IMG/VR virus record: IMGVR_UViG_3300048014_000023 | Span: 1 to 56,150 of that record | Direction: 5' to 3' (one strand) | DNA length: 56,150 bases | Origin: a virus | Shown: one piece after another, positions 42,021 through 56,034 of the stretch | Layout: every line of letters starts with the position of its first letter | Numbering within the stretch: the first letter of the stretch is position 1 | Position numbers and translations under genes: made by a program | Notes under the pieces: generated by a model | What the model saw: only the letters and a program-made list of their open reading frames with translations | What the model was told of the DNA's origin: nothing | The model's database searches: none

Positions 42021-42275
42021 ATGGAAGAAAAAATTGACAAGATAGTCGATAAGTTAACTCACATAGAAGTGACCTTAGCAAAGCAGCAAGTCATACTACA
42101 AGAACACATGAAACGATCTGAAGCCAACGAAAAAGCCATAGAGATCTTAAAAGAAGAGCAAAAGCCGGTAAAAGAACTGATGATAAAAATCAACTTCATC
42201 CACAAGTCCATACTATGGGTCGGTGGGATACTTGCTGCTCTACACGGGCTACTCAAGATCATATCGATGAGGTGA
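42021..42275 (+). CDS. XhlA-like holin-associated membrane protein
   Basis: The 84-residue protein has a helical, coiled-coil N-terminus (EEKIDKIVDKLTHIEVTLAK) with an EHMKRSEANEKA segment and one C-terminal hydrophobic helix (SILWVGGILAALHGLLKII). This order matches haemolysin XhlA-type phage proteins found beside holins. It would sit in the inner membrane. It is followed 3 bases later by another membrane protein, so the pair may form a lysis unit. The endolysin genes are elsewhere in the window. Confidence 0.6.
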   Translation: MEEKIDKIVDKLTHIEVTLAKQQVILQEHMKRSEANEKAIEILKEEQKPVKELMIKINFIHKSILWVGGILAALHGLLKIISMR

Positions 42276-42277
42276 TT

Positions 42278-42526
42278 ATGAAGAGCTTCATATATAACCT
42301 ATTGTCCCAGAACAGTAGCCTCTCTAGCATGCGATTTATGGCCCTTCTATGCCTTTTAACGGCCATGATTATAGCGATTTATGGCGTCATAGCAGGGCGC
42401 GACGCGTCAGGCATAGCTACCCTCTCAGGAGTGTTCTTAGCGGCTGCAATGGGCGGTAAAGTCGGTCAAAAAGCCATCGAGACCAAAAACACCAAGATAG
42501 TCTCAGATACCGAAGAAATCAAGTAA
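42278..42526 (+). CDS. two-helix membrane protein, holin candidate
   Basis: ATG 42278 behind GAGGTGATT gives 82 residues; an earlier in-frame start inside the upstream gene is not needed. Two hydrophobic segments are visible: FMALLCLLTAMIIAIYGVIA and, after the GRDASGIAT turn, LSGVFLAAAMGG. A charged C-terminus follows. Size and topology fit a class II-type holin. It is the last plus-strand gene before the convergent junction. Confidence 0.6.
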   Translation: MKSFIYNLLSQNSSLSSMRFMALLCLLTAMIIAIYGVIAGRDASGIATLSGVFLAAAMGGKVGQKAIETKNTKIVSDTEEIK

Positions 42527-42740: not shown

Positions 42741-42965
42741 TCAAACGTCTTTCGTATATTTATCAAACCTGGCCCACTGCTCCGGAGTCATTCCGTACTC
42801 CTCAGCAACCTGCTCAAGTAAAAACGTTATCTCAGCTTTGTTTCTAAGTATCTTTTCTAGCTTCGACTCAAACTTATCCTGCGTACACTCGCAGAACTTG
42901 TCTGGCTTTATGTAGAGCTTAGTTCTTTCTGGTACCCATCCCATGCACATCTTGCAGTATCCCAT
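42741..42965 (-). CDS. small cysteine-containing protein
   Basis: The 74-residue protein has an excellent ribosome site (AAAAAAGGAGGAAAT). It starts with GYCKMCMGW and a KFCECTQDKF segment (CxxC and CxC, a possible metal site) and ends in helices (LEQVAEEYGMTPEQWARFD). It is the most promoter-distal gene of the minus-strand cassette, beyond the 27-bp repeats. Function unknown. Confidence 0.6.
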   Translation of the reverse strand: MGYCKMCMGWVPERTKLYIKPDKFCECTQDKFESKLEKILRNKAEITFLLEQVAEEYGMTPEQWARFDKYTKDV

Positions 42966-43013
42966 ATTTCCTCCTTTTTTATGAGCGTATTAAAATATGG
43001 AATAAATGCTAGC

Positions 43014-43094
43014 TAAAAAGAATAAACTAGACTTATGGCTTAAAAAGAATAAACTAGACTTATGGCTTAAAAAGAATAAACTAGACTTATGGCT
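43014..43094. repeat. three perfect 27-bp tandem repeats
   Basis: Units at 43014-43040, 43041-43067 and 43068-43094 are identical. Each begins TAAAAAGAATAAACTAGACT and ends TATGGCT. The array is non-coding and lies between two minus-strand genes. Iteron-like origin, protein-binding or recombination roles are all possible. Confidence 0.9.
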
Positions 43095-43099
43095 AAAGG

Positions 43100-43178
43100 T
43101 GAGGTGGGGGTTCGCTACGCCCCTAGGTGCCGGCGTCCATTATGCTTGGAGGATTGCACCAGTGTTAACCTCCTAAGC
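43100..43178. other. structured non-coding segment
   Basis: Next to the 27-bp repeats, a GGGGG...GCCCC hairpin (about 43106-43123) is followed by a longer imperfect stem (43144-43178). In that stem GCTTGGAGG pairs with CCTCCTAAGC and an inner CAC-CA-GTG is enclosed. No tRNA fold could be drawn. It may be a small RNA, the leader of the minus-strand gene at 42741, or part of an origin. Confidence 0.4.
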
Positions 43179-43216
43179 TGCCCTCGGTTCCAGTCATAGA
43201 CAGCTACCGACTAACC

Positions 43217-43420
43217 TCAAGGAACATCGTACTCGTTTTTTAAATCGCTGATGATTTTTCTTAATTGATCAATCTTAATCGTTTCTTTGTTTTCGTATTT
43301 CCACAGACGTCGCAACTCTTCGTCTAAATCTTCTAGTACTCGCTCTGCTCGACCTGCCCTACTTGCTCGGTCAAAATCTTCTTGGTCTTCTGGTAAATTA
43401 AACCACATTGCTATCTTCAT
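43217..43420 (-). CDS. small helical protein, unknown function
   Basis: The 67-residue protein starts behind GGGGGAAGAA. The sequence is FNLPEDQEDFDRASRAGRAE followed by LDEELRRLWKYEN and a basic-acidic helix. Proteins with the 'LPED-E-F--A' start and 'LRR-LKYE' centre are common, uncharacterised phage products. No function is known. Confidence 0.6.
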   Translation of the reverse strand: MKIAMWFNLPEDQEDFDRASRAGRAERVLEDLDEELRRLWKYENKETIKIDQLRKIISDLKNEYDVP

Positions 43421-43448
43421 TTCTTCCCCCGCGCCTTTGCCGTGTTTT

Positions 43449-43475
43449 GCTACAAATTCGTGTTAAACTTGTAGC
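43449..43475. terminator. inverted repeat between minus-strand genes
   Basis: GCTACAA (43449-43455) pairs with TTGTAGC (43469-43475) around a 13-base AT-rich loop. It lies between the hexamer-repeat gene and the next minus-strand gene. No T-run accompanies it on either strand, so termination is uncertain. Confidence 0.35.
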
Positions 43476-43522
43476 GTTAGTGAAGGCTTTCCATGTTATT
43501 CGTTGTTTCGTTTCGCTCGGAT

Positions 43523-43792
43523 TTACATGCCATCGCCATAGCCATCGCCATCGCAATCTCCATTGCCATAGCCATTGCCATTACCATGGCCATTGCCATA
43601 GCCATCGCCATCGCCATAGCCATCGCCATCGCAATCGCCATTGCCATAGCCATTGCCATAGCCATCGCCATTGCCATTGCCATCGCCATCGCCAGTGCCA
43701 TCGCCATAGCCATTGCCATAGCCATAGACATAGCCATTGCCATATGTCGTTTGCGAATCTTCTCCAATGTTTATTTCAAATGATGTTTCCAT
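43523..43792 (-). CDS. (Gly-Xaa)n repeat protein encoded by GGCNAT hexamers
   Basis: The 89-residue protein starts at 43792 behind GAGGAAAA. After METSFEINIGEDSQTTY, residues 18-88 are almost entirely Gly alternating with Tyr, Asn or Asp (GYGNGYGDGTGDGDGNG). Several other frames are also open here because the tract is hexameric. This one is preferred because it has a ribosome site, a non-repetitive acidic start, the orientation of its neighbours and a 22-base overlap with the upstream gene. Function unknown; an extracellular, sticky or metal-binding repeat is conceivable. Confidence 0.6.
   Translation of the reverse strand: METSFEINIGEDSQTTYGNGYVYGYGNGYGDGTGDGDGNGNGDGYGNGYGNGDCDGDGYGDGDGYGNGHGNGNGYGNGDCDGDGYGDGM
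43529..43743 (-). repeat. degenerate GGCNAT hexanucleotide tract
   Basis: Roughly 35 consecutive hexamers of the form GGC-NAT fill the tract on the minus strand, with variation almost only at the first base of the second codon (T, A or G, giving Tyr, Asn or Asp; one His). Length changes by slippage would remain in frame. Confidence 0.85.
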
Positions 43793-44286
43793 TTTTCCTC
43801 ATTACAAACTATCGTTGCTACTTCGGTTAAAGGATGAAACTCAACAAGTCCATTTGTTGGATCAAGCCTGGTTGATTCTTTTGGACCTTCTGCGGCCAAT
43901 TCGCCAAGACCTTTGGTTGTTCCCCACGAACGGATAACCATCGCATTATAAATCTTGCACTTTTTCTCTCCATACTCGTAACGACCAATCATTACCCATC
44001 CACGCTGCAAGATAACAATGCGAACATCTCCTGTAGATGAATAATTTTGGTTTAATCCTTTTTGAACGTAAACAACTCCATTTACTATTATTTCTGTAAC
44101 TTCTGTTTCAATTCTATGTTTTAACTTTTCATTTTCATTTGCCAAAGCATCGTATGCGGCTTTTTCAATCATGTGGAGGGCGTCAGGGTCTAAACCATCT
44201 ACTCTCTCAATATAAGTATCTGCTGGTCCATCTGCGTTACCTTTTAACTCTACATATAATTCTTTAAACCCAGTAAAATCACTCAT
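43771..44286 (-). CDS. unknown protein
   Basis: The 171-residue protein begins MSDFTGFKELYVELKG and continues with a helical segment (DALHMIEKAAYDALANENEK), then a strand-rich part (VTEIIVNGVVYVQKGLNQNY; VRIVILQRGWVMIGRYEYG). Helix-then-strand order and the MIGRYEYGEKKCKIYNAMVI segment suggest a small mixed domain. It is coupled to the upstream gene by a four-base overlap. Not recognised. Confidence 0.55.
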   Translation of the reverse strand: MSDFTGFKELYVELKGNADGPADTYIERVDGLDPDALHMIEKAAYDALANENEKLKHRIETEVTEIIVNGVVYVQKGLNQNYSSTGDVRIVILQRGWVMIGRYEYGEKKCKIYNAMVIRSWGTTKGLGELAAEGPKESTRLDPTNGLVEFHPLTEVATIVCNEEKWKHHLK

Positions 44287-44573
44287 AACTCAACCCCCGC
44301 GTTAACAAGTAATAATGCGTTAATAATTCGTTCTTTCGGCGTGTCGCCAAGCTCTACGTATTCAAGGTATCCATCATTAATTTCAGCTGCGGAATCAAAA
44401 TAAAACAGACGCATCAGCCCTTTGACTTCTTCGGTATAATTTAGAGAATAGTAAGGCGCGCAATGTCCTATGGCGCAACGCTGTCCGTATTCGTTTTCAT
44501 AACTACCCGTTGTCCACTTTTCATCTGGAATAGCATCAAACTTATTAATAAAATAAATCGCATCGTATTTCAT
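44283..44573 (-). CDS. small conserved-looking protein (DUF6197-like)
   Basis: The 96-residue protein starts behind AGGAGTTTT. The order FDAIPDEKWTTGSYENEYGQ, RCAIGHCAPYY, AAEINDGYLEY, DTPKERIINAL follows the pattern of small proteins with W-x-x-G, RCA-x-GH and late I-x-AL segments (DUF6197-type). The match is from memory of the pattern and should be treated as tentative. Function unknown. Confidence 0.5.
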   Translation of the reverse strand: MKYDAIYFINKFDAIPDEKWTTGSYENEYGQRCAIGHCAPYYSLNYTEEVKGLMRLFYFDSAAEINDGYLEYVELGDTPKERIINALLLVNAGVEL

Positions 44574-44580
44574 AAAACTC

Positions 44581-44943
44581 CTATTCGTAAAAACACCATA
44601 CGTATATTCTAGCGCCTTCTAACCTATCTGCCAACCAGTCTTTGTCGTTAAGAAGCCTGTTCCTACCTGACGGATGAGGCAACTTGTAATGCTCAACCTT
44701 CATTTTTAATAGAGCCGTAGCGGCGTTATTGCCTAAAGCTATTATAGGCATGTCATTTAAATCTGCTTCTCTTACTATTTGCTGAAAATCATCGCTAGTA
44801 GTGTTGACTGCTTTGTACCACTTCATGTCTGGAGCAATGATCTTATGCCATTTCTTTAAAGTCTCGCCGCTCTTAGTGCCAACAAAAGCTAAGTCAGGAT
44901 TAGTATTTTTACGGCTAGGCTTATCGCCAACATAAAGAACCAT
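44581..44943 (-). CDS. uracil-DNA glycosylase-superfamily-like protein
   Basis: ATG 44943 behind GGGAGTTATA gives 120 residues; an earlier ATG at 44958 lies upstream of the ribosome site. The KLPHPSGRNRLLND segment (87-100, His90-Pro91-Ser92) is the C-terminal catalytic motif of the UDG superfamily. GDKPS near the start could replace motif 1, and IIALGNNAA (67-75) matches the central strand. It is shorter than typical UDGs (about 200 residues), so it may bind rather than excise bases. Three operator-like repeats lie just upstream. Confidence 0.6.
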   Translation of the reverse strand: MVLYVGDKPSRKNTNPDLAFVGTKSGETLKKWHKIIAPDMKWYKAVNTTSDDFQQIVREADLNDMPIIALGNNAATALLKMKVEHYKLPHPSGRNRLLNDKDWLADRLEGARIYVWCFYE

Positions 44944-44959
44944 TATAACTCCCGTCATA

Positions 44960-45027
44960 AACTATGCTAAACTACCCTAAACTATGCTAAACTTTTAATA
45001 ACTTAACCTAGCAGTTTAGCTATAGTT
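44960..45027. promoter_or_regulatory. operator-like repeats upstream of the UDG-like gene
   Basis: AACTATGCTAAACT occurs exactly at 44960-44973 and 44980-44993, a 20-base period equal to about two helical turns. A third, inverted copy with one extra base lies at 45013-45027. They sit 16-85 bases upstream of the start at 44943, the expected place for regulator binding. Confidence 0.55.
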
Positions 45028-45152
45028 CGTTCCGCCTTAGCAATCTCTCTTTCCATGAACGCTTTAAGGTGCTTATCAACAGCCATTTCTGCCTGTCTTT
45101 TGCATTTTTCTATGTAAATTCTTAGTCTTGCGACTTCTTTTATCAGGTCCAT
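45003..45152 (-). CDS. 49-residue basic helical protein
   Basis: ATG 45152 behind GGGAGGAAGA, inside the end of the upstream gene, encodes 49 residues of continuous charged helix (KEVARLRIYIEKCKRQAEMA). The strong ribosome site and 10-base overlap support reality. The stop overlaps the operator-like repeat region. Function unknown. Confidence 0.55.
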   Translation of the reverse strand: MDLIKEVARLRIYIEKCKRQAEMAVDKHLKAFMEREIAKAERTIAKLLG

Positions 45153-45493
45153 TCTTCCTCCCTATCGTAACGAGCTTCTTCTCTGTCCTCTAAAGCTTCA
45201 GCGACATCTATCTTAGATTCTATGTCGCAAGCAAGATTGTCCCAATCAATACGCAGATCCTTCTCGTCTAAATAAAATTCTTTGTTTGATATGACAATAG
45301 AATATGGAGTCACAAAAGGCAGATAATTAGTCCATTGAATCTCAAAATCGCCTTCGACTTCTAGTTCAAAGGGAGCGTTTTCTGTCGTGTAGTTAAGACT
45401 ATTGAGCTCACCTTCGCTAAGATCGTGCGAGTATATGACGCCTCGATATGCCGTTCCAAATACCTTACGGACTCTGACTCTAATCTTATCCAT
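45143..45493 (-). CDS. unknown protein with acidic C-terminus
   Basis: The 116-residue protein starts behind AGGGAGGCATT. A basic first strand (KIRVRVRKVFGTAYRGVIYS) is followed by an acidic beta-rich centre and a very acidic tail (EALEDREEARYDREEEWT). Such charge polarity is seen in DNA mimics and small regulatory proteins, but no family is recognised. Confidence 0.5.
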   Translation of the reverse strand: MDKIRVRVRKVFGTAYRGVIYSHDLSEGELNSLNYTTENAPFELEVEGDFEIQWTNYLPFVTPYSIVISNKEFYLDEKDLRIDWDNLACDIESKIDVAEALEDREEARYDREEEWT

Positions 45494-45513
45494 AATGCCT
45501 CCCTGAAATGATA

Positions 45514-45651
45514 TTACTGTATTTTTTTAATAGGCGCAACTAAGAAAACCAAAGTATCAGCCTTAAACATCGTATAAATAATACGATAGCCTGATTGCTC
45601 TATTTCTTTAGCTTTAACCTGTGTGCCTTTAGGATAAATGATTGTTTTCAT
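45514..45651 (-). CDS. 45-residue unknown protein behind a hairpin
   Basis: ATG 45651 behind AGGAGGGCAC encodes 45 residues (KTIIYPKGTQVKAKEIEQSG; then YRIIYTMFKADTLVFLVAPI). It has strand-helix-strand character with a hydrophobic end. Its ribosome site is one arm of the hairpin at 45654-45680. Function unknown. Confidence 0.55.
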   Translation of the reverse strand: MKTIIYPKGTQVKAKEIEQSGYRIIYTMFKADTLVFLVAPIKKIQ

Positions 45652-45653
45652 GT

Positions 45654-45680
45654 GCCCTCCTAATGACTTATCGGGAGGGC
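45654..45680 (-). promoter_or_regulatory. hairpin that sequesters a ribosome binding site
   Basis: On the minus strand GCCCTCC (45680-45674) pairs perfectly with GGAGGGC (45660-45654) around a 13-base loop. The second arm is the Shine-Dalgarno sequence of the 45-residue gene. The hairpin also lies just after the stop codon of the ClpP-like gene. Confidence 0.65.
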
Positions 45681-45695
45681 AGGTAAGAACTTAAG

Positions 45696-46436
45696 TTATT
45701 TCTTAGCAAATCCTAAACGAAATGTCGGACAGTTAGAATAAACCATAGTAAATGTGCCAAAAATTGACTCTTGTGTAATTTCGGTACGTTTATCTATGAG
45801 TTCTTGAGAGCAAGAGATGTCTACAATCTTATCTGCAGCCTTGTACTGTACTGCTTCTTTGGCGTTTAACCACCATTCGTCCTTAGCATGGCCTTTAAAC
45901 TCAAAGATGCTCATCTTGAGACGATTAGCTACCGTTGTCTCAAGGTCTAAGATCTGCTTCTTAGCAAACTCAAAGCGAGACTCAAGTTCTCCAACCTCAA
46001 ACTGTCCTTGAAACTGTCCTCGAGCCCTATGAAACATCAAAACACCTTTGTTGGTCATCATCCGTTCACCGGGTAGCGACTCGGTAATATCTGCAGCCAT
46101 AGAAGCTCCAAATATTACTATGGTACGAAGATTAGGAACTAGCTTAGCAACCTCAATAAAATCAAGTCCGGTGTCAACTTCGCCGCCGGGACTATCGATT
46201 ACTAAGTAAATCGGATAATCTTTGAACAATCGTTTTGCTACGACTTTAGCTAAGTCAAGTTCGAGTCGACCGATGCTGTCTTCGTTGACTTCGCCTCTCA
46301 ACAATACCATGTTGTTTGAGTTTAACATGACTTTTTCATTCATTGCGACTTGAGCCCCGGCCGCCTTCATGCCGATAAAATACGCAATCCCTGCGACTAA
46401 CAAAGCCTTTATTACCGTACCTGTGATCGTGTTCAC
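45696..46436 (-). CDS. exported ClpP-like serine protease
   Basis: The 246-residue protein has an N-terminal signal/anchor (residues 7-28, IKALLVAGIAYFIGMKAAGA). It then has a ClpP/SppA-type crotonase fold: IDSPGGEVDTG (80-90), FGASMAAD with probable nucleophile Ser112, LMFHRARG with probable His136, and KDEWWLNAKEAVQY with probable Asp186. Cytosolic ClpP lacks such a signal, so this enzyme probably works in the membrane or periplasm. It shares a four-base overlap with the DUF5675 gene. A second ClpP-like protein is encoded at 48113. Confidence 0.75.
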   Translation of the reverse strand: MNTITGTVIKALLVAGIAYFIGMKAAGAQVAMNEKVMLNSNNMVLLRGEVNEDSIGRLELDLAKVVAKRLFKDYPIYLVIDSPGGEVDTGLDFIEVAKLVPNLRTIVIFGASMAADITESLPGERMMTNKGVLMFHRARGQFQGQFEVGELESRFEFAKKQILDLETTVANRLKMSIFEFKGHAKDEWWLNAKEAVQYKAADKIVDISCSQELIDKRTEITQESIFGTFTMVYSNCPTFRLGFAKK

Positions 46437-46861
46437 GCTTTCTCCTTTGATGTTACTTTCAGTTTAAATTCGTTTATGTTATTTTGTAATGTCATGAACT
46501 TCTCAAAAGTGACGCGACTGTTGATTACGGCGTCTCCGACTCTCGCGCTCCCTAAGAGCACACAGCCTTCTGAGTCTTTTTCCGTGTTACCCGGGTGAAA
46601 CAAGATGTTTGAGTGGCCAGTCACTCCCGTTATCTCAAAAGTCGTAAAGTCGTGTGTCATGGTGGCGAGCCGGTGCTGGCCTCTGACGCAAGAAAACTCT
46701 CCGTCTGGAATTTTTGAAATGAAGCTCCCGTTGCCCAAGCCCGAATCATACGCGTGCTCGAGCGTCGCCGCAATTTCAACTTCGTTTCCATCTTGAAGGT
46801 AAGACAGAGTACCAAATACTCCGTTTGCCCCTTTGTCGTTTCTGTTTAATATCAGATCCAT
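46433..46861 (-). CDS. DUF5675 family protein
   Basis: The 142-residue protein carries the family signature ILFHPGNTEKDSEGCVLLG (86-104, with His89, Asp96 and Cys100) preceded by PDGEFSC and TTFEITGVTGHS. The His and Cys arrangement recalls L,D-transpeptidase-like catalytic sites, so a peptidoglycan-related role is possible but unproven. The start at 46861 has a GTGGGG ribosome site. A promoter with overlapping inverted repeat lies immediately upstream. Confidence 0.75.
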   Translation of the reverse strand: MDLILNRNDKGANGVFGTLSYLQDGNEVEIAATLEHAYDSGLGNGSFISKIPDGEFSCVRGQHRLATMTHDFTTFEITGVTGHSNILFHPGNTEKDSEGCVLLGSARVGDAVINSRVTFEKFMTLQNNINEFKLKVTSKEKA

Positions 46862-46876
46862 TGTAACCCCACAGTT

Positions 46877-46914
46877 AGTATAGTATTGAATTTATTTCCC
46901 CGTCAATACTATAC
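46877..46914 (-). promoter_or_regulatory. minus-strand promoter overlapped by a 12-bp inverted repeat
   Basis: On the minus strand TTGACG (46906-46901) and TATACT (46882-46877) are 18 bases apart. Perfect 12-bp half-sites (GTATAGTATTGA and its complement) at 46878-46889 and 46903-46914 cover the -10 and -35 boxes. A repressor bound there would block expression of the DUF5675-ClpP unit. The inverted repeat could also form a terminator-like hairpin. Confidence 0.65.
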
Positions 46915-46919
46915 GTCTT

Positions 46920-47486
46920 TTATTGAGAAATAGTTCCGTCGCTGTTGATGTAGAAGTTGCACGAATCGTTAATGCCGTCTGATGAGTACTCACCAGGTGA
47001 CAGTAAAGCCAAGAAACCGCCGTTAGCTGAATAAACCCCGTAGACCTGGTTATTCACGACGATACCGTACTCTGGAAACGTCCCAGGATAAGACGGCACA
47101 AATCCTGCGCAAAACTGAACGAATTGAATCTGTGTTCCAGCAGCGCCAACGGCCCCTGTAGCCCCTGTAGCTCCCGTGGCACCGGTTGCGCCCGTAGCCC
47201 CAGTTTGTCCTTGAGGCCCTGTAGCGCCGTTGCAGACGCTCGTAGTCATGCTGTTAACAGTAAGGTCTACGCCTCCGTTTGGACACTCAGCAACAGTAGA
47301 TGGCGATGTCTGCACTACAGGCGTAGCGCCGTTCAACCCTGGCGTTCCTTGCGGTCCCTGTGGCCCTTGATCACCAGTGTAACCCGTAGGTCCTCGGCAT
47401 GCCGTCAATAGGCTCACTAGGACGAGTAACGCTAATACGATAACCACCATTGCAGTGTAATTCACTTGTCTTTTTTCGTTGTTCAT
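46920..47486 (-). CDS. collagen-like lipoprotein
   Basis: The 188-residue protein starts at 47486 behind GGGGGTATT. A hydrophobic segment ends in a lipobox, SLLTAC, with Cys30 as the lipidation site. Two collagen-like Gly-X-Y runs follow: residues 32-55 (8 triplets, GPT to GAT) and about 91-123 (GPQGQT, then GAT repeats). A cysteine-containing C-terminal domain of about 65 residues ends at ISQ. It should sit on the host envelope facing the periplasm or outside. Collagen-like repeats are frequent in phage fibres, but attachment to a lipoprotein signal is unusual. A superinfection-exclusion or surface-modification role is a hypothesis. Confidence 0.75.
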   Translation of the reverse strand: MNNEKRQVNYTAMVVIVLALLVLVSLLTACRGPTGYTGDQGPQGPQGTPGLNGATPVVQTSPSTVAECPNGGVDLTVNSMTTSVCNGATGPQGQTGATGATGATGATGATGAVGAAGTQIQFVQFCAGFVPSYPGTFPEYGIVVNNQVYGVYSANGGFLALLSPGEYSSDGINDSCNFYINSDGTISQ

Positions 47487-48112: not shown

Positions 48113-48610
48113 ATGAAATACGATATATTATTAATTGGTGACGTAGACGAAGATCTCTTGAAAACTTTTGTTGAGTTTCTCATCGAAGCCGAAAAAACCA
48201 GGGCTAAGAAAGAGTTGAAGGTACTGCTGAGCTCTAGCGGCGGAGATGCCCACGTAGCCATGGCTTTTTATGACGTCATCAAGTCTTCTAACTTAAAGAT
48301 GTCTGTCATTGGAACAGGCATAGTAGCGAGTGCTGCGAGCCTAATCTTTATGGCTTTTAAAGAGAGGTACATGACTCAAAACGCCTACTTCATGGTACAC
48401 GAAGACAGCATCAGCGGGCTTGAAGGAGCCAAGGTAAGCCAGATAGAAAAAGAAGCACAGCATGCCAGACGCATCGAAGATCTCTGGACGACACTTTTTC
48501 CCGAAACTCAAAAATTAAATTATCTTGACTGGGCATATTTGCACAGAGAAGAAACTTATTTCAATGCAGAAGAGTGCCTAGCACACGGTATAATTAAGGG
48601 GATAGTATGA
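48113..48610 (+). CDS. second ClpP-like serine protease (no signal peptide)
   Basis: The 165-residue protein starts behind AAGGGGGAATC. It has the ClpP-like order LLSSSGGDAHVAMAFYDVI (39-57), GTGIVASAASLIFMAF (67-82; Ser73 is the likely nucleophile), YFMVHE (92-97; His96) and REETYFNAEECLAHGIIKGI. The third catalytic acid is unclear: a Glu lies where ClpP has Asp. It lacks a signal, so it should be cytoplasmic, unlike the protein at 45696. Phage ClpP-like proteins often act as prohead proteases, but this gene is far from the head genes. Confidence 0.7.
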   Translation: MKYDILLIGDVDEDLLKTFVEFLIEAEKTRAKKELKVLLSSSGGDAHVAMAFYDVIKSSNLKMSVIGTGIVASAASLIFMAFKERYMTQNAYFMVHEDSISGLEGAKVSQIEKEAQHARRIEDLWTTLFPETQKLNYLDWAYLHREETYFNAEECLAHGIIKGIV

Positions 48611-48684
48611 TTACATTACTAGCTTTGTTGATATTTTCTATAGTAGGATTAGTATTTGTAGACATTATTATGGAGGACAAATGA
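48607..48684 (+). CDS. 25-residue membrane peptide
   Basis: It begins in an ATGA overlap with the ClpP-like gene. The sequence is a single hydrophobic helix (TLLALLIFSIVGLVFVDII) and a short MEDK tail. It is the first of three consecutive overlapping membrane genes. Confidence 0.45.
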   Translation: MITLLALLIFSIVGLVFVDIIMEDK

Positions 48685-48791
48685 TCGAATGGTTGGTTAT
48701 TCCTTTTTTAGCTGTTATTTTGTTCTTACTTCTTGTTATAGTTATACTTGCTTGTATTACTATTATTAAAGATTTTTGGAGGGATTTATGA
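48681..48791 (+). CDS. 36-residue membrane peptide
   Basis: ATG 48681 overlaps the previous stop (ATGA) behind GGAGGACAA. Almost the whole peptide is hydrophobic (LVIPFLAVILFLLLVIVILA), ending in KDFWRDL. It could be a holin-like or micro-membrane protein; function unknown. Confidence 0.5.
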   Translation: MIEWLVIPFLAVILFLLLVIVILACITIIKDFWRDL

Positions 48792-49261
48792 CCTTACCAA
48801 CCATTACGATTACTAGTAAACAAAAATACATCATAGCAGGAACTTTGATAGTAGTAGCCTTTATAGGCGGCAGGTATTCATCTCAGAAGCCTGACGTCCA
48901 CACCGTGACTCAAACGGCTGACGTTAAGAAAGTCAACGATCAAAAAGACACGCACACGCAAACGACGATTACGACAGTCAAGACTCCAGATGGAACCGTC
49001 AAGACCGTAGAGCAGATCAATCAGGTGGCAGACGAGGACACTAAAGTCGAAGATACGAAGCAGGTAAAGGTCGATCAAACGATCACCTCAGTAAAGGCTA
49101 AGAACAACATATCCGCCTTGGTGTCAAACGATTTTAGCGACGGAGTATTGAAACCTTCCTATGGCGTATCGTTTCAGCGCGAGTTGATAGGACCGGTAAC
49201 CGTTGGAGCATTTGGTTTGACGAGCGGGGTACTAGGATTATCAATCGGCATCAACTTTTGA
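48788..49261 (+). CDS. membrane-anchored periplasmic protein, spanin-like candidate
   Basis: ATG 48788 behind TTGGAGGGATTT gives 157 residues. A short cytoplasmic start (TLPTITITSKQK) is followed by one transmembrane helix (YIIAGTLIVVAFIGG), a long Thr/Lys/Asp-rich stalk (about 35-105), and a beta-rich C-terminus (GPVTVGAFGLTSGVLGLSIG). Such N-in, C-out topology resembles inner-membrane spanins, though the C-terminal beta strands are atypical. It is linked by ATGA to two membrane peptides. Confidence 0.5.
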   Translation: MTLPTITITSKQKYIIAGTLIVVAFIGGRYSSQKPDVHTVTQTADVKKVNDQKDTHTQTTITTVKTPDGTVKTVEQINQVADEDTKVEDTKQVKVDQTITSVKAKNNISALVSNDFSDGVLKPSYGVSFQRELIGPVTVGAFGLTSGVLGLSIGINF

Positions 49262-49268
49262 GGTTAAC

Positions 49269-49439
49269 GTGGCGTTAGACGACATCCCTAAGGATCAGCT
49301 AGAAAAATTGATAGAAGAAGCAAAGAGACTTTCCAAGGAATGGGGATAACCTACCTACATAGTTAGAGACACTGACACTGGGGAACTTTACATAGTGGGC
49401 GAATCCCAGATAAGCAAAGACCCACCACAGGTGCACTGA
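49269..49439 (+). pseudogene. small gene interrupted by an in-frame TAA
   Basis: GTG 49269 behind GAGGTTAAC opens 26 codons (ALDDIPKDQLEKLIEEAKRL...) that end at TAA 49347-49349. The same frame then continues with 29 coding-like residues (PTYIVRDTDTGELYIVGESQ...) to TGA 49437-49439, which overlaps the next start. The two parts look like one helix-plus-strands protein split by a nonsense codon. Readthrough, or a true 26-residue gene followed by untranslated sequence, are the alternatives. Confidence 0.4.
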
Positions 49440-49843
49440 TGAGCTTTAAAGAGTTATGCAAGAACTTAGAAAGTAAAATTAAGAACAGCTACGAGCAAGG
49501 TGTGACAATACCTGACGCAGAGTTGTTAGCTGCAGAGTTCCTCGCTGCGCAAATTAAGGTGTCAGAAGAGTTGAAGGTAGCAGACCTTGACGCGAGGATG
49601 CGCAAGTCAGGTGTCAAGGCAGTTCGAGCAGCGATTTACATGGAAGCCGCGACTAAAGATCAAAAAAAGCCTAGCGACGTCTTACTAGCAGCGATGGTAG
49701 ACATGAATCAGGTAGTACAGAGCGAGCAAGACGACTTAGATAAGGCAGAAGTAGAGAGAGACGATTTAGAACGGTATTACTCGATATTTCAACAAGCACA
49801 CATATATTTTCGCGGCATAGCTAAGGGGAACTTCGGTGGCTAA
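49439..49843 (+). CDS. helical protein coupled to the recombinase gene
   Basis: The 134-residue protein is helical with an acidic tail (VQSEQDDLDKAEVERDDLER) and a conserved-looking RMRKSGVKAVRAAIYMEAA segment. It overlaps the RecA-like gene by 8 bases. The context suggests a recombination accessory factor such as a mediator; no motif supports it directly. Confidence 0.55.
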   Translation: MSFKELCKNLESKIKNSYEQGVTIPDAELLAAEFLAAQIKVSEELKVADLDARMRKSGVKAVRAAIYMEAATKDQKKPSDVLLAAMVDMNQVVQSEQDDLDKAEVERDDLERYYSIFQQAHIYFRGIAKGNFGG

Positions 49844-50741
49844 GTTTGACATCCAAGGAATAGTATCTGACGTTCAAAAGCTTTACGCTAAGGACAACAA
49901 GTCAAAATCTATGATTACTACCGGAGCAGCACTCCGGAAAGAATATACGGACAAAGACGGCGTCCCAGTCCCAGCAGGCAGCCCATTGAGAGAGTTGGTA
50001 GGGCTTCCTTGCGTACCGTACAACAAGATCATACAGATAGCAGGACCTCCAGATTCAGGCAAGAGCACCTGCGCAGGGCAGTTAATGGCTGCAGCTCAAA
50101 AAGCCGGCAACGTCGTCATTTTGTGGGACAGCGAGCAAAAGTTTGACTCTAAGAGATTTCAAGACAAATTTGGCGGAAGCGTGGCCGACATCTTGATAGT
50201 ACAGACAAACGAGATTCTTCAAGGTGGCGAGAAAGTCAGAAAGCTAGCCATCGCCGTAAAAGACAGATACCCAGACGCGAAGATCCTCATAGTATGGGAT
50301 AGCGTCGGCGGCAGCCAAGCTCGTGGAGCAGCAGAGCGCGAACTAGACGACGAGAAGCACGGTCAGCCAGGACAAGACGCCAAAGAAAACGGCGCGGTCA
50401 TGAAGATGATCGTAGGACTTATTAACAAATATCCAGACAGCGTAGCAACGGTCCTTATTAACCAGGTGTACGCTAAGATCGGATTTATGCAGCACGGTAA
50501 CGCTGAATCCGGCGGTAAGAAGATTGAATTTCACTCGTCTCTCATCATTCAGTTAAAACAGATAAAAGTCTTAAAAAAGACAGTTAAAGGCCAAATTGTT
50601 AAATACGGTATCGTTTCTAGAGCACTTATGAAGAAGAACCATTTGTCTCAATCCGAGACTTCTCTTCATCAGCTAGATTTTGAGATTACGGCAAACGGTG
50701 CTAGAGTAAGTGATGATCAAGGCGAAGACGACGATGAATAA
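49836..50741 (+). CDS. RecA-like recombinase
   Basis: The 301-residue protein starts at GTG 49836. Walker A is GPPDSGKST at 70-78 and Walker B is ILIVWDSVGG (150-159, Asp155). A KENGAVMKMIVGLINKYP segment precedes VATVLINQVYAKIGF (central strand and L2-like region). The tail is acidic (DDQGEDDDE). It is shorter than E. coli RecA and closer in length to phage UvsX-type or Sak4-like proteins. It would promote strand exchange in phage recombination-dependent replication, together with the SbcCD-like pair and endonuclease VII downstream. Confidence 0.85.
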   Translation: MAKFDIQGIVSDVQKLYAKDNKSKSMITTGAALRKEYTDKDGVPVPAGSPLRELVGLPCVPYNKIIQIAGPPDSGKSTCAGQLMAAAQKAGNVVILWDSEQKFDSKRFQDKFGGSVADILIVQTNEILQGGEKVRKLAIAVKDRYPDAKILIVWDSVGGSQARGAAERELDDEKHGQPGQDAKENGAVMKMIVGLINKYPDSVATVLINQVYAKIGFMQHGNAESGGKKIEFHSSLIIQLKQIKVLKKTVKGQIVKYGIVSRALMKKNHLSQSETSLHQLDFEITANGARVSDDQGEDDDE

Positions 50742-51732
50742 CCCGATAGCCGTCATAATATCCGATGTACATTATAGCGTAAATACTCTCGATTTAGCAG
50801 ACGCTGCAATGAACATGGCTATTGAAAAGGCTAACGACTTAGAAGTTCCATTGATAGTATCAGGAGATTTGCACGACACCAAGGCAAACATGCGGGCAGA
50901 GTGCGTAAACGCCATGCTAAAGACTTTCAAGAAAGCCGCGTCTAAGCCCTTAGTATTAGTTGGTAATCATGACAGAATCAATGAAAAAAACGAAGAGCAT
51001 TCGCTTAATTTTTTAAATGACGTGGCTAACTTAATAAACAAAGAAGCCGTAGTAGAGTTACAAGGAAAAATCATTGATATTGTTAACTACAATCACGACG
51101 TCGAAGCGTTGAGAAGCTATCTTAAAAAACTTCCAGCAGGGTCATTCTTAATAATGCACCAGGGGCTTCTGAATTCTGAAGCAGGTGAATACATACAAGA
51201 TCACAGCGCGCTTAGCCACGACGACGTAAAAGATTTTAAAGTAATATCTGGGCACTACCACAAGAGGCAGCACCTAAAGACGGGGCCAAGCGGCTACTGG
51301 AATTACGTAGGAAACCCGTACACTCTCAACTTTGGCGAAGCTTACGATCCAGAAAAAGGATTTTTAATCTTATGCGAAGACGAAGGACTCGAGTTTGTTC
51401 CTACAAAACTACGAAAACATGTCGTCATTAAATACGACCTTGAGACAAAAGAAGCAGAGTGGTCGTCTGGGCCAACCTACAGTAAAGATTTGATCTGGTT
51501 AAAGGTGAGCGGACCAAATTCAAAGTTAAAAAAATTAGATAAAGAAAAGTTGTGCAGTGACATTGGAATTCTAAGAAATTGCAGGTTTGATTTAATTCCT
51601 ACGGACAAACAATCCTCAGTGTCAATCGATGCCAGCGTAACAAAAGAAAAGTTTTTAGATAAAGTCATAGACGCAGAACCTTTAGACCAAGAAAAAAAAG
51701 AACACCTCAAGAAGTTGTGGAGAAACCTTTGA
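50734..51732 (+). CDS. SbcD-like metallophosphoesterase (Mre11 family)
   Basis: ATG 50734 gives 332 residues; a GTG at 50710 would add eight. All calcineurin-like nuclease motifs are present: SDVHY (Asp11, His13), GDLHD (Asp45), GNHD (77-80, with Asn78 and His79), HQG (His142) and GHYH (173-176). It is the nuclease partner of the SbcC-like ATPase in the next gene, with which it shares a TTGA junction. Phage homologues (T4 gp47 type) process DNA ends for recombination. Confidence 0.9.
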   Translation: MNNPIAVIISDVHYSVNTLDLADAAMNMAIEKANDLEVPLIVSGDLHDTKANMRAECVNAMLKTFKKAASKPLVLVGNHDRINEKNEEHSLNFLNDVANLINKEAVVELQGKIIDIVNYNHDVEALRSYLKKLPAGSFLIMHQGLLNSEAGEYIQDHSALSHDDVKDFKVISGHYHKRQHLKTGPSGYWNYVGNPYTLNFGEAYDPEKGFLILCEDEGLEFVPTKLRKHVVIKYDLETKEAEWSSGPTYSKDLIWLKVSGPNSKLKKLDKEKLCSDIGILRNCRFDLIPTDKQSSVSIDASVTKEKFLDKVIDAEPLDQEKKEHLKKLWRNL

Positions 51733-55125: not shown

Positions 55126-55512
55126 ATGAATACAATCTGGGTCTTTTTTTTAATAACAAGTTCTCAGTACAATCTTCCTAAAGGACTCTTACCTGCATTG
55201 TGTTACGTAGAGTCGAACCACAAGGTAAACGCTGTTCATCACGACGACGGCAACGGAGACTCATTAGGGATATGCCAGATAAAGTTAGCTACCGCGCAGA
55301 GTTTAGGATTTAAAGGTACCGAAGAAGAGTTGATGAATCCTAAGACTAACATTCACTACGCAGGTAAATACTTGGCTAAGCAGTTAGTAAGGTACGACGG
55401 CTCGGTGAGGAAAGCAGTCATAGCTTACAATCAAGGAAGAGTAAAGACGTTGACTACTACTAAGTATCAAGTTAAGGTATTTAATAAGTGGAGGCAATAT
55501 TATGAAAATTAA
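55126..55512 (+). CDS. lytic transglycosylase-like lysin
   Basis: The 128-residue protein has a hydrophobic start (TIWVFFLITSS) that could be a signal-anchor, then a lysozyme-like SLT fold: LLPALCYVESNHKVNAVHHD with catalytic Glu29, GDSLGICQIKLATAQSLGF, and YLAKQLVRYDGSVRKAVIAYNQG. It would cleave peptidoglycan glycan strands at lysis or during entry. No upstream ATG exists before a TGA stop at 55111, and no Shine-Dalgarno is visible, so translation may be leaderless. Confidence 0.8.
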   Translation: MNTIWVFFLITSSQYNLPKGLLPALCYVESNHKVNAVHHDDGNGDSLGICQIKLATAQSLGFKGTEEELMNPKTNIHYAGKYLAKQLVRYDGSVRKAVIAYNQGRVKTLTTTKYQVKVFNKWRQYYEN

Positions 55513-55567
55513 AGAAATCCTTTTAGATCTAGATCCAGACGGCTATCCAGCAAGTCAGGAGGAATAA
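55502..55567 (+). CDS. 21-residue peptide between lysin and 55567
   Basis: ATG 55502, inside the lysin end, encodes 21 residues (KIKEILLDLDPDGYPASQEE) and stops in a TAATG overlap with the next gene. It also contains that gene's AGGAGGAATA ribosome site. It may only serve to couple translation. Confidence 0.3.
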   Translation: MKIKEILLDLDPDGYPASQEE

Positions 55568-56034
55568 TGGGACTTATTCCTGTTGCATGTCCTGATTGTA
55601 ATAAACAACACTTATGGTTTACTGGTAATCCAGATCAAAGGTGTGAAGATTGCGTCGGTAATATTAAAATCCCTTTAAAGCCTAGAATGGATTATAAAAT
55701 TACTACTAACAAAGTTGAATTAAACAAAAAACAAGGTACTAAGCACGACACAGATAAACCAGACTTGAGCTTGCTTCCAAGAGAGTTTCTTAACGAAGTA
55801 GCTAAGGCTATGATGCACGGAGAAAAAAAATATGGTCGATTTAATTACTTGGGGGGAATGGCTTGGCATCGTCTTATCGCTGCTGGGCTTCGGCACCTTA
55901 CTGCTTTTGCGGCAGGAGAAGACTTGGACGACGAGTCAGGGGTATCTCACCTTGGCCATTGTGCTGCTTGCATACTTATGCTTTGTGTTTACCGTAATAG
56001 GAAACTAGGAACTGACGACAGGGATAAGGTATGA
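55567..56034 (+). CDS. dATP/dGTP diphosphohydrolase-like protein with zinc ribbon
   Basis: The 155-residue protein has an N-terminal zinc ribbon (CPDC at 8-11 and CEDC at 26-29) fused to a helical domain. That domain follows the order KHDTDKPDLSLLPREFL, MHGEKKYGRFNYLGG, RLIAAGLRHLTAFAAGEDLD and HLGHCAACILML. This matches the phage dATP/dGTP diphosphohydrolase N-terminal family (MazG/HD-like, related to enzymes of modified-base phages). It would trim dNTP pools. The presence of the domain does not by itself show that the genome carries modified adenine. Confidence 0.75.
   Translation: MGLIPVACPDCNKQHLWFTGNPDQRCEDCVGNIKIPLKPRMDYKITTNKVELNKKQGTKHDTDKPDLSLLPREFLNEVAKAMMHGEKKYGRFNYLGGMAWHRLIAAGLRHLTAFAAGEDLDDESGVSHLGHCAACILMLCVYRNRKLGTDDRDKV

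Follow-up and report, generated by a model that had tools for sequence, protein, structure and literature searches.

A probable lysis cassette with a predicted exported serine protease in a family of tailed phages

Phage lysis systems use holins, endolysins and spanins to disrupt the membranes, the wall and the outer membrane, and the holin-endolysin-spanin cassettes that encode them sometimes add an envelope enzyme, such as LysB of mycobacteriophages. The locus described here is like these cassettes in that a holin-like gene, a wall hydrolase and a further envelope-acting gene are adjacent and endolysin types are interchangeable, but the fixed extra component in this phage family is a predicted exported serine protease drawn from two unrelated folds. 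A search of one open-access library found no prior report of an exported serine protease in a lysis cassette. The trypsin-like LypABC proteins of Caulobacter, needed for GTA lysis, were considered as a precedent and rejected because they belong to a bacterial immune-type system (PMC13236601).

The window, the whole stretch of DNA analysed, corresponds to an entire IMG/VR virus record (56,150 bases) and represents a tailed-phage genome, with genes for helicase, DNA polymerase, terminase, portal and capsid. As a preliminary description had stated, the genes from 47486 down to 42741 lie on the minus strand, opposed to the rest, with plus-strand genes on both flanks; cumulative GC skew reaches its minimum near 47-48 kb, where the strand changes. 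The features of the region are as follows.

42021-42275, plus strand: holin-like protein, coiled coil and one C-terminal transmembrane (TM) segment; weak PHROG holin match (0.0013)
42215-42526, plus strand: small membrane protein, second holin candidate, forming a conserved pair with the holin-like gene
42741-44573, minus strand: five small or low-complexity ORFs (96, 171, 89, 67 and 74 aa), the rest of the minus block
44581-44943, minus strand: uracil-DNA-glycosylase (UDG)-like protein; Pfam UDG 3.7e-6, above cut-off
44958-44993, minus strand: 10-bp phased TAAACTATGC repeats with two exact 16-mers 20 bp apart, preceding the UDG gene
45003-45152, minus strand: ORF, 49-aa protein
45143-45493, minus strand: ORF, 116-aa protein
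45514-45651, minus strand: ORF, 45-aa protein
45653-45681, minus strand: hairpin with 8-bp stem TGCCCTCC/GGAGGGCA, covering the Shine-Dalgarno sequence of the 45-aa gene
45696-46436, minus strand: ClpP-like serine protease, predicted to be exported; GTG start at 46436, signal at about residues 1-28; Pfam 1.7e-15
46433-46861, minus strand: DUF5675 protein, no signal peptide, probable endolysin; Pfam 1.9e-18
46878-46914, minus strand: perfect 12-bp inverted repeat GTATAGTATTGA-N13-TCAATACTATAC, preceding the DUF5675 gene
46920-47486, minus strand: collagen-like lipoprotein; ATG at 47486, lipobox LLTAC; Pfam collagen 8.5e-9
48113-48610, plus strand: second ClpP-like protein, no signal, of a separate cytosolic clade; divergent forward module
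48776-49261, plus strand: protein with an N-terminal TM segment; divergent module

The four Pfam matches listed for the minus block agree with the cassette contents first reported. The UDG-like gene, whose start was corrected to ATG 44943 from its Shine-Dalgarno sequence, lies just beyond the interval then considered (44960-47486) and has relatives in L066 and L058. Homologues in the fetched viral loci were found neither for the 49-, 116- and 45-aa proteins, the last of which also matches no confident family, nor for the four of the five ORFs in 42741-44573 that were queried. A long (GCCATC)n-type hexamer array occupies 43523-43743, where several frames are read and a GYGNGDG-rich ORF results; in relatives this slot contains other low-complexity ORFs (Ala-rich, SRSGS).

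About 80 viral loci were gathered by scanning for the terminase, polymerase, protease, lipoprotein and SbcD-like proteins, all the relatives being unclosed contigs or fragments; no isolated phage emerged as a close relative from searches with the whole region as DNA or with terminase, portal and trypsin-type protease as proteins. Synteny and HMM tallies give a common order, in which holin-like genes end the tail module and precede a variable stretch, which frequently lies on the opposite strand, and then a forward module of cytosolic ClpP (often), homologues of the 48776 and 49439 genes, RecA, SbcD and SLT lysozyme. In the window this slot lies between the holin-like genes (42021-42526) and the conserved forward module (48113-51732). 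In relatives the variable stretch contains genes for a peptidoglycan hydrolase and a serine protease with a signal, together with those for the collagen lipoprotein and a DEAD/ResIII helicase, and the minus-strand order trypsin-DUF5675-helicase-lipoprotein of L120, L121 and L133 matches in place the protease-DUF5675-lipoprotein order of the window.

Twelve genomes of at least 49 kb carry the RecA/SbcD block: the window, G005, G012, G013, G014, G015, G016, G018, G020, G021, G022 and G024. (G025, with a trypsin beside other genes, lacks the block and was omitted from the count.) All twelve have one peptidoglycan hydrolase and one signal-bearing serine protease between a holin-like gene and the 48776/49439/RecA/SbcD module, a placement that uses contig wrap-around in some genomes (G005, G014, G021). 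The hydrolase is a DUF5675 protein in six (window, G012, G013, G014, G016, G018), M15 in G015, G020 and G021, and GH24 in G005, G022 and G024. The protease is ClpP-type in four (window, G014, G015, G021) and trypsin-type in the remaining eight. The two types never occur together: Pfam searches for trypsin gave no match in the four genomes with the ClpP type, and the other ClpP matches carry no signal. Trypsin-type members carry His and Ser motifs, with the exception of G017, which has no clear Ser motif. The minus block had been read as looking like an accessory or moron-type unit, and comparison of relatives for gain or loss had been proposed. The comparison speaks against that view: absence from close relatives, as a moron would show, is not what the near-complete genomes display, and it is the protein fold filling each role, not its presence, that varies.

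Over all loci, hydrolase and protease lie within 3 kb of each other on 16 contigs, 11 of them within 100 nt; in G013, G020 and G024 other genes intervene, and the distance in G024 is about 4 kb. Several relatives arrange the pair in operons: holin-DUF5675-trypsin-48776 homologue, with overlaps of about 4 bp, in L063; holin-trypsin-GH24 lysozyme in G022; holin-TM2-trypsin-M15 in L056; and holin-signal ClpP-DUF5675 in G009. Overlap or near-contact in these four and in L129 and L135 implies that the protease belongs to the holin/endolysin unit. A holin-like gene adjoins a wall hydrolase in L063, G022, L056, G009 and G021, holin identity being weak by profile, and a homologue of the 42021 gene stands directly before the hydrolase and protease in relatives; in the window, holin-like genes and hydrolase share the interval on opposite strands. 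The product of 48776-49261, judged from its N-terminal TM segment and from the place of its homologue as last gene of the L063 operon, is possibly a spanin. The signal-less ClpP at 48113-48610 holds the same position in G006, G020, G021, L120, L124, L125 and L056. Small Rrf2-like regulators were recognized by eye from sequence near the cassette at L031:9494-9928 (minus strand) and L129:7393-7827 (plus strand).

The protease of the window overlaps the end of the DUF5675 gene by 4 bp and matches the ClpP profile PF00574 at 57.8 bits (cut-off 20.2). It is like ClpP in its fold profile, its Ser and His and its head-domain motifs, but the Ser-His-Asp triad is incomplete, with S112 and H136 present and Glu187 at the Asp position, and a cysteine pair, C209/C236, is found. 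A signal or lipobox and all five of these residues are common to the ten members that were aligned. Over the clade, an N-terminal signal occurs in 20 of 20 members, the Ser in 19, the His in 20 and the Cys pair in 16, and Glu replaces the catalytic Asp in most; cytosolic ClpPs lack the Cys pair. Signals were called by hydrophobicity and motif, and export is thus predicted from N-terminal sequence; the universal signal argues against a cytosolic tetradecamer serving a Clp ATPase, and outside the cytoplasm no ATPase partner would be expected. SppA and other ClpP-fold peptidases face the periplasm, and the predicted location of the present clade is similar; unlike SppA-type peptidases, it is unmatched by the families searched and forms a phage-borne clade of its own. 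The analysis names a clade of exported ClpP-like proteases expected to work without an ATPase.

In a tree of 44 ClpP sequences all 20 exported forms fall on one side of a 98/98 branch, and export state requires a single change, a count as low as which arose in 0 of 500 shuffles. The clade is mostly phage-borne: matches in bacterial genomes are mostly, to judge by their neighbours, phage contigs binned into MAGs, and one (L074) looks chromosomal. Within it, the window protein joins L037/L038 (93/87, not starred) and L125 joins L040/L044/L045 (84/65), while G006 and L139 cluster with proteins of large phages and G009 pairs with G011. Repeated exchange between phages would fit these groupings. 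Members from large phages are flanked by SbcC/D and an FmdB-like zinc ribbon, or by FtsH, and not by lysis genes; a link to lysis therefore does not hold throughout the clade. At L040:9923-12604 and L045:2540-5202 an exported ClpP-like lipoprotein adjoins a phage-encoded FtsH (Pfam M41 7.8e-69 for that of L040). The PHROG name, head maturation protease, was rejected as a function, because the jumbo-phage ClpPs so called lack signals and because the tree sets exported apart from cytosolic forms.

DUF5675 (PF18925) was assigned at 66.8 bits against a cut-off of 26.7. Single-sequence scans found nothing for either this protein or the ClpP-like protease, and alignments were required; an AlphaFold2 model of the former was built from six family members (pLDDT 84.6). 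Foldseek on this model is weak alone, its best match (E 5e-3) being an L,D-transpeptidase. In VIA-align the top 39 entries all have the L,D-transpeptidase/carboxypeptidase (YkuD-like) fold or are close kin, at Z 5.8-8.7 with the best to 4a1i, and the next, unrelated entry falls to Z 2.5; a Z below 8 can arise by chance, but these top rows are uniform. The model thus points to an L,D-transpeptidase fold, which by itself shows no activity. The protein is like YkuD, Csd6/Pgp2 and Bd1075 in predicted fold and in an invariant His (H89) and S-x-G-C (S97-x-G99-C100). It differs from L,D-transpeptidases as a short stand-alone domain without a YkuD match in the Pfam search. Their canonical motif, HXX14-17[S/T]HGC, is departed from in two respects: the His-to-Cys spacing is shorter, and E, D or S replaces the His before GC. 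A relative in the crAss-like phage cr126_1 is annotated as an L,D-carboxypeptidase/transpeptidase and lies three genes from a "lysis regulatory protein", and one in a Salinibacter phage sits near small membrane proteins. We therefore regard DUF5675, on the strength of its modeled fold, as a probable endolysin, which assigns a fold and a likely function to the protein family. An SLT transglycosylase/lysozyme conserved in the phage family, encoded at 55126-55512 (plus strand) upstream of replication genes, is another candidate wall enzyme and could be the real endolysin instead.

Relatives also encode the collagen-like protein as a lipoprotein, and its conserved C-terminal domain (VYSANGGFL..PG.YSSDGIN.SC) was found in 21 viral loci; a model of this domain (pLDDT 82.8) matched no solved structure in the PDB. 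Together with the signal-bearing protease clade and the predicted fold of DUF5675, its recurrence supports the earlier proposal that the products are directed to the envelope.

The three regulatory features that had been noted are all present, and each exceeds chance expectation. Apart from the palindrome, the record contains no perfect 12-bp inverted repeat with a spacer of 3-20 nt, and shuffling produced one in 0 of 20 whole-window and 2 of 200 regional trials. The palindrome overlaps the sequence TTGACG-18-TATACT, which matches a promoter at 10/12 positions (-35 at 46906-46901, -10 at 46882-46877), and is probably a promoter-operator for the DUF5675 and protease genes, at which a regulator would act. 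The ribosome-site hairpin has a folding energy of -18.4 kcal/mol (z -3.8). Repeats spaced by 20 bases do exist, as copies of TAAACTATGCTAAACT at 44958-44993, but the underlying period is 10 bp (x3.6). A promoter-like site over them is unconvincing: its TATAAT belongs to the UDG gene start region, where the Shine-Dalgarno sequence points to ATG 44943. An Rfam search gave no match. Neither the palindrome nor the phased repeats recur exactly in any fetched locus except those cut from the window, and a family-wide regulatory role was rejected for both. An intergenic promoter for DUF5675 is excluded in L063, L120, L129 and L133, where the gene overlaps its upstream neighbour. No match to the helicase that stands upstream in relatives was found in the window lineage, which likely, as we infer, drives DUF5675 and protease from its own operator-controlled promoter. 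Separate transcription of the minus block, as first proposed, is plausible given its strand and this window-specific promoter.

The minus block is, we think, probably this family's swappable lysis/envelope cassette, in which the constant additional component is an exported protease that aids the breakdown of the envelope. Membership of a conserved lysis region is well supported by the gene-order comparisons; an active, envelope-cutting role for the protease is plausible. The holin-like proteins (42021-42526) would let the signal-less DUF5675 endolysin into the periplasm, and the ClpP-like protein, exported by its own N-terminal signal, would act as a serine protease outside the cytoplasm and, because of that location, without ClpX/ClpA or ATP. 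It would most likely cut envelope proteins, for example ties between outer membrane and wall, so that lysis completes. The trypsin-fold protease would take the same role in most relatives, and the collagen-like lipoprotein would be an envelope companion of the cassette. Retention of a protease in the lysis slot across the family, with two unrelated folds substituting for each other, would suggest that the host envelope contains a protein barrier which these phages have to cleave. The more specific claim, that an exported serine protease recruited either from the trypsin fold or from an ATP-independent phage clade of ClpP is obligatory in the cassette throughout this uncultivated phage family, cleaves envelope protein tethers and so fills a further standard role in phage lysis, we put forward tentatively.

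Several observations count against a lysis role: the minus block of relatives also carries the DEAD/ResIII helicase, which is not a lysis gene; the holin profile match is weak and DUF5675 departs from canonical motif spacing; and the exported ClpPs of large phages lie beside DNA-repair genes or FtsH. The last of these, with the block's own strand, the window-specific promoter-operator, the co-oriented helicase of relatives and the conservation of an SLT lysozyme elsewhere in the genome, would suit a host-takeover or superinfection-exclusion cassette, in which protease and lipoprotein would act early to remodel the envelope (removing receptors, for example), the wall enzyme would help, and the SLT lysozyme would lyse the cell. 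We consider this rather unlikely, since in L063, G022, L056, G009, L129, L135 and G014 the protease abuts or shares an operon with holin-like genes in the late direction. Adjacency to the hydrolase and probable co-expression could also mean that the protease processes a phage lysis protein, releasing or activating the endolysin or a holin inhibitor, and cuts no host proteins; the occurrence of five of the six protease-hydrolase combinations speaks against a dedicated pair, neither a signal nor an evident pro-domain is present in the hydrolases, and this reading seems quite improbable. The original view of an accessory moron unit of no shared role can draw on the several small ORFs of the block without homologues in the fetched loci, but with the slot and both enzymatic roles found in 12 of 12 near-complete relatives it is hardly credible.

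Three further observations were made. Small cytochrome-c-like proteins with CxxCH are encoded at L023:5682-5960 (plus strand) and L167:4022-4285 (minus strand), in relatives G006 and G021, Pfam supporting the first only. In the window, three perfect 27-bp tandem copies of TAAAAAGAATAAACTAGACTTATGGCT at 43014-43094 adjoin a GC-rich non-coding stretch (43095-43200); they are iteron-like and may mark a replication origin. Positions 55567-56034 (plus strand) encode a dATP/dGTP diphosphohydrolase N-terminal domain (Pfam 3.5e-29).
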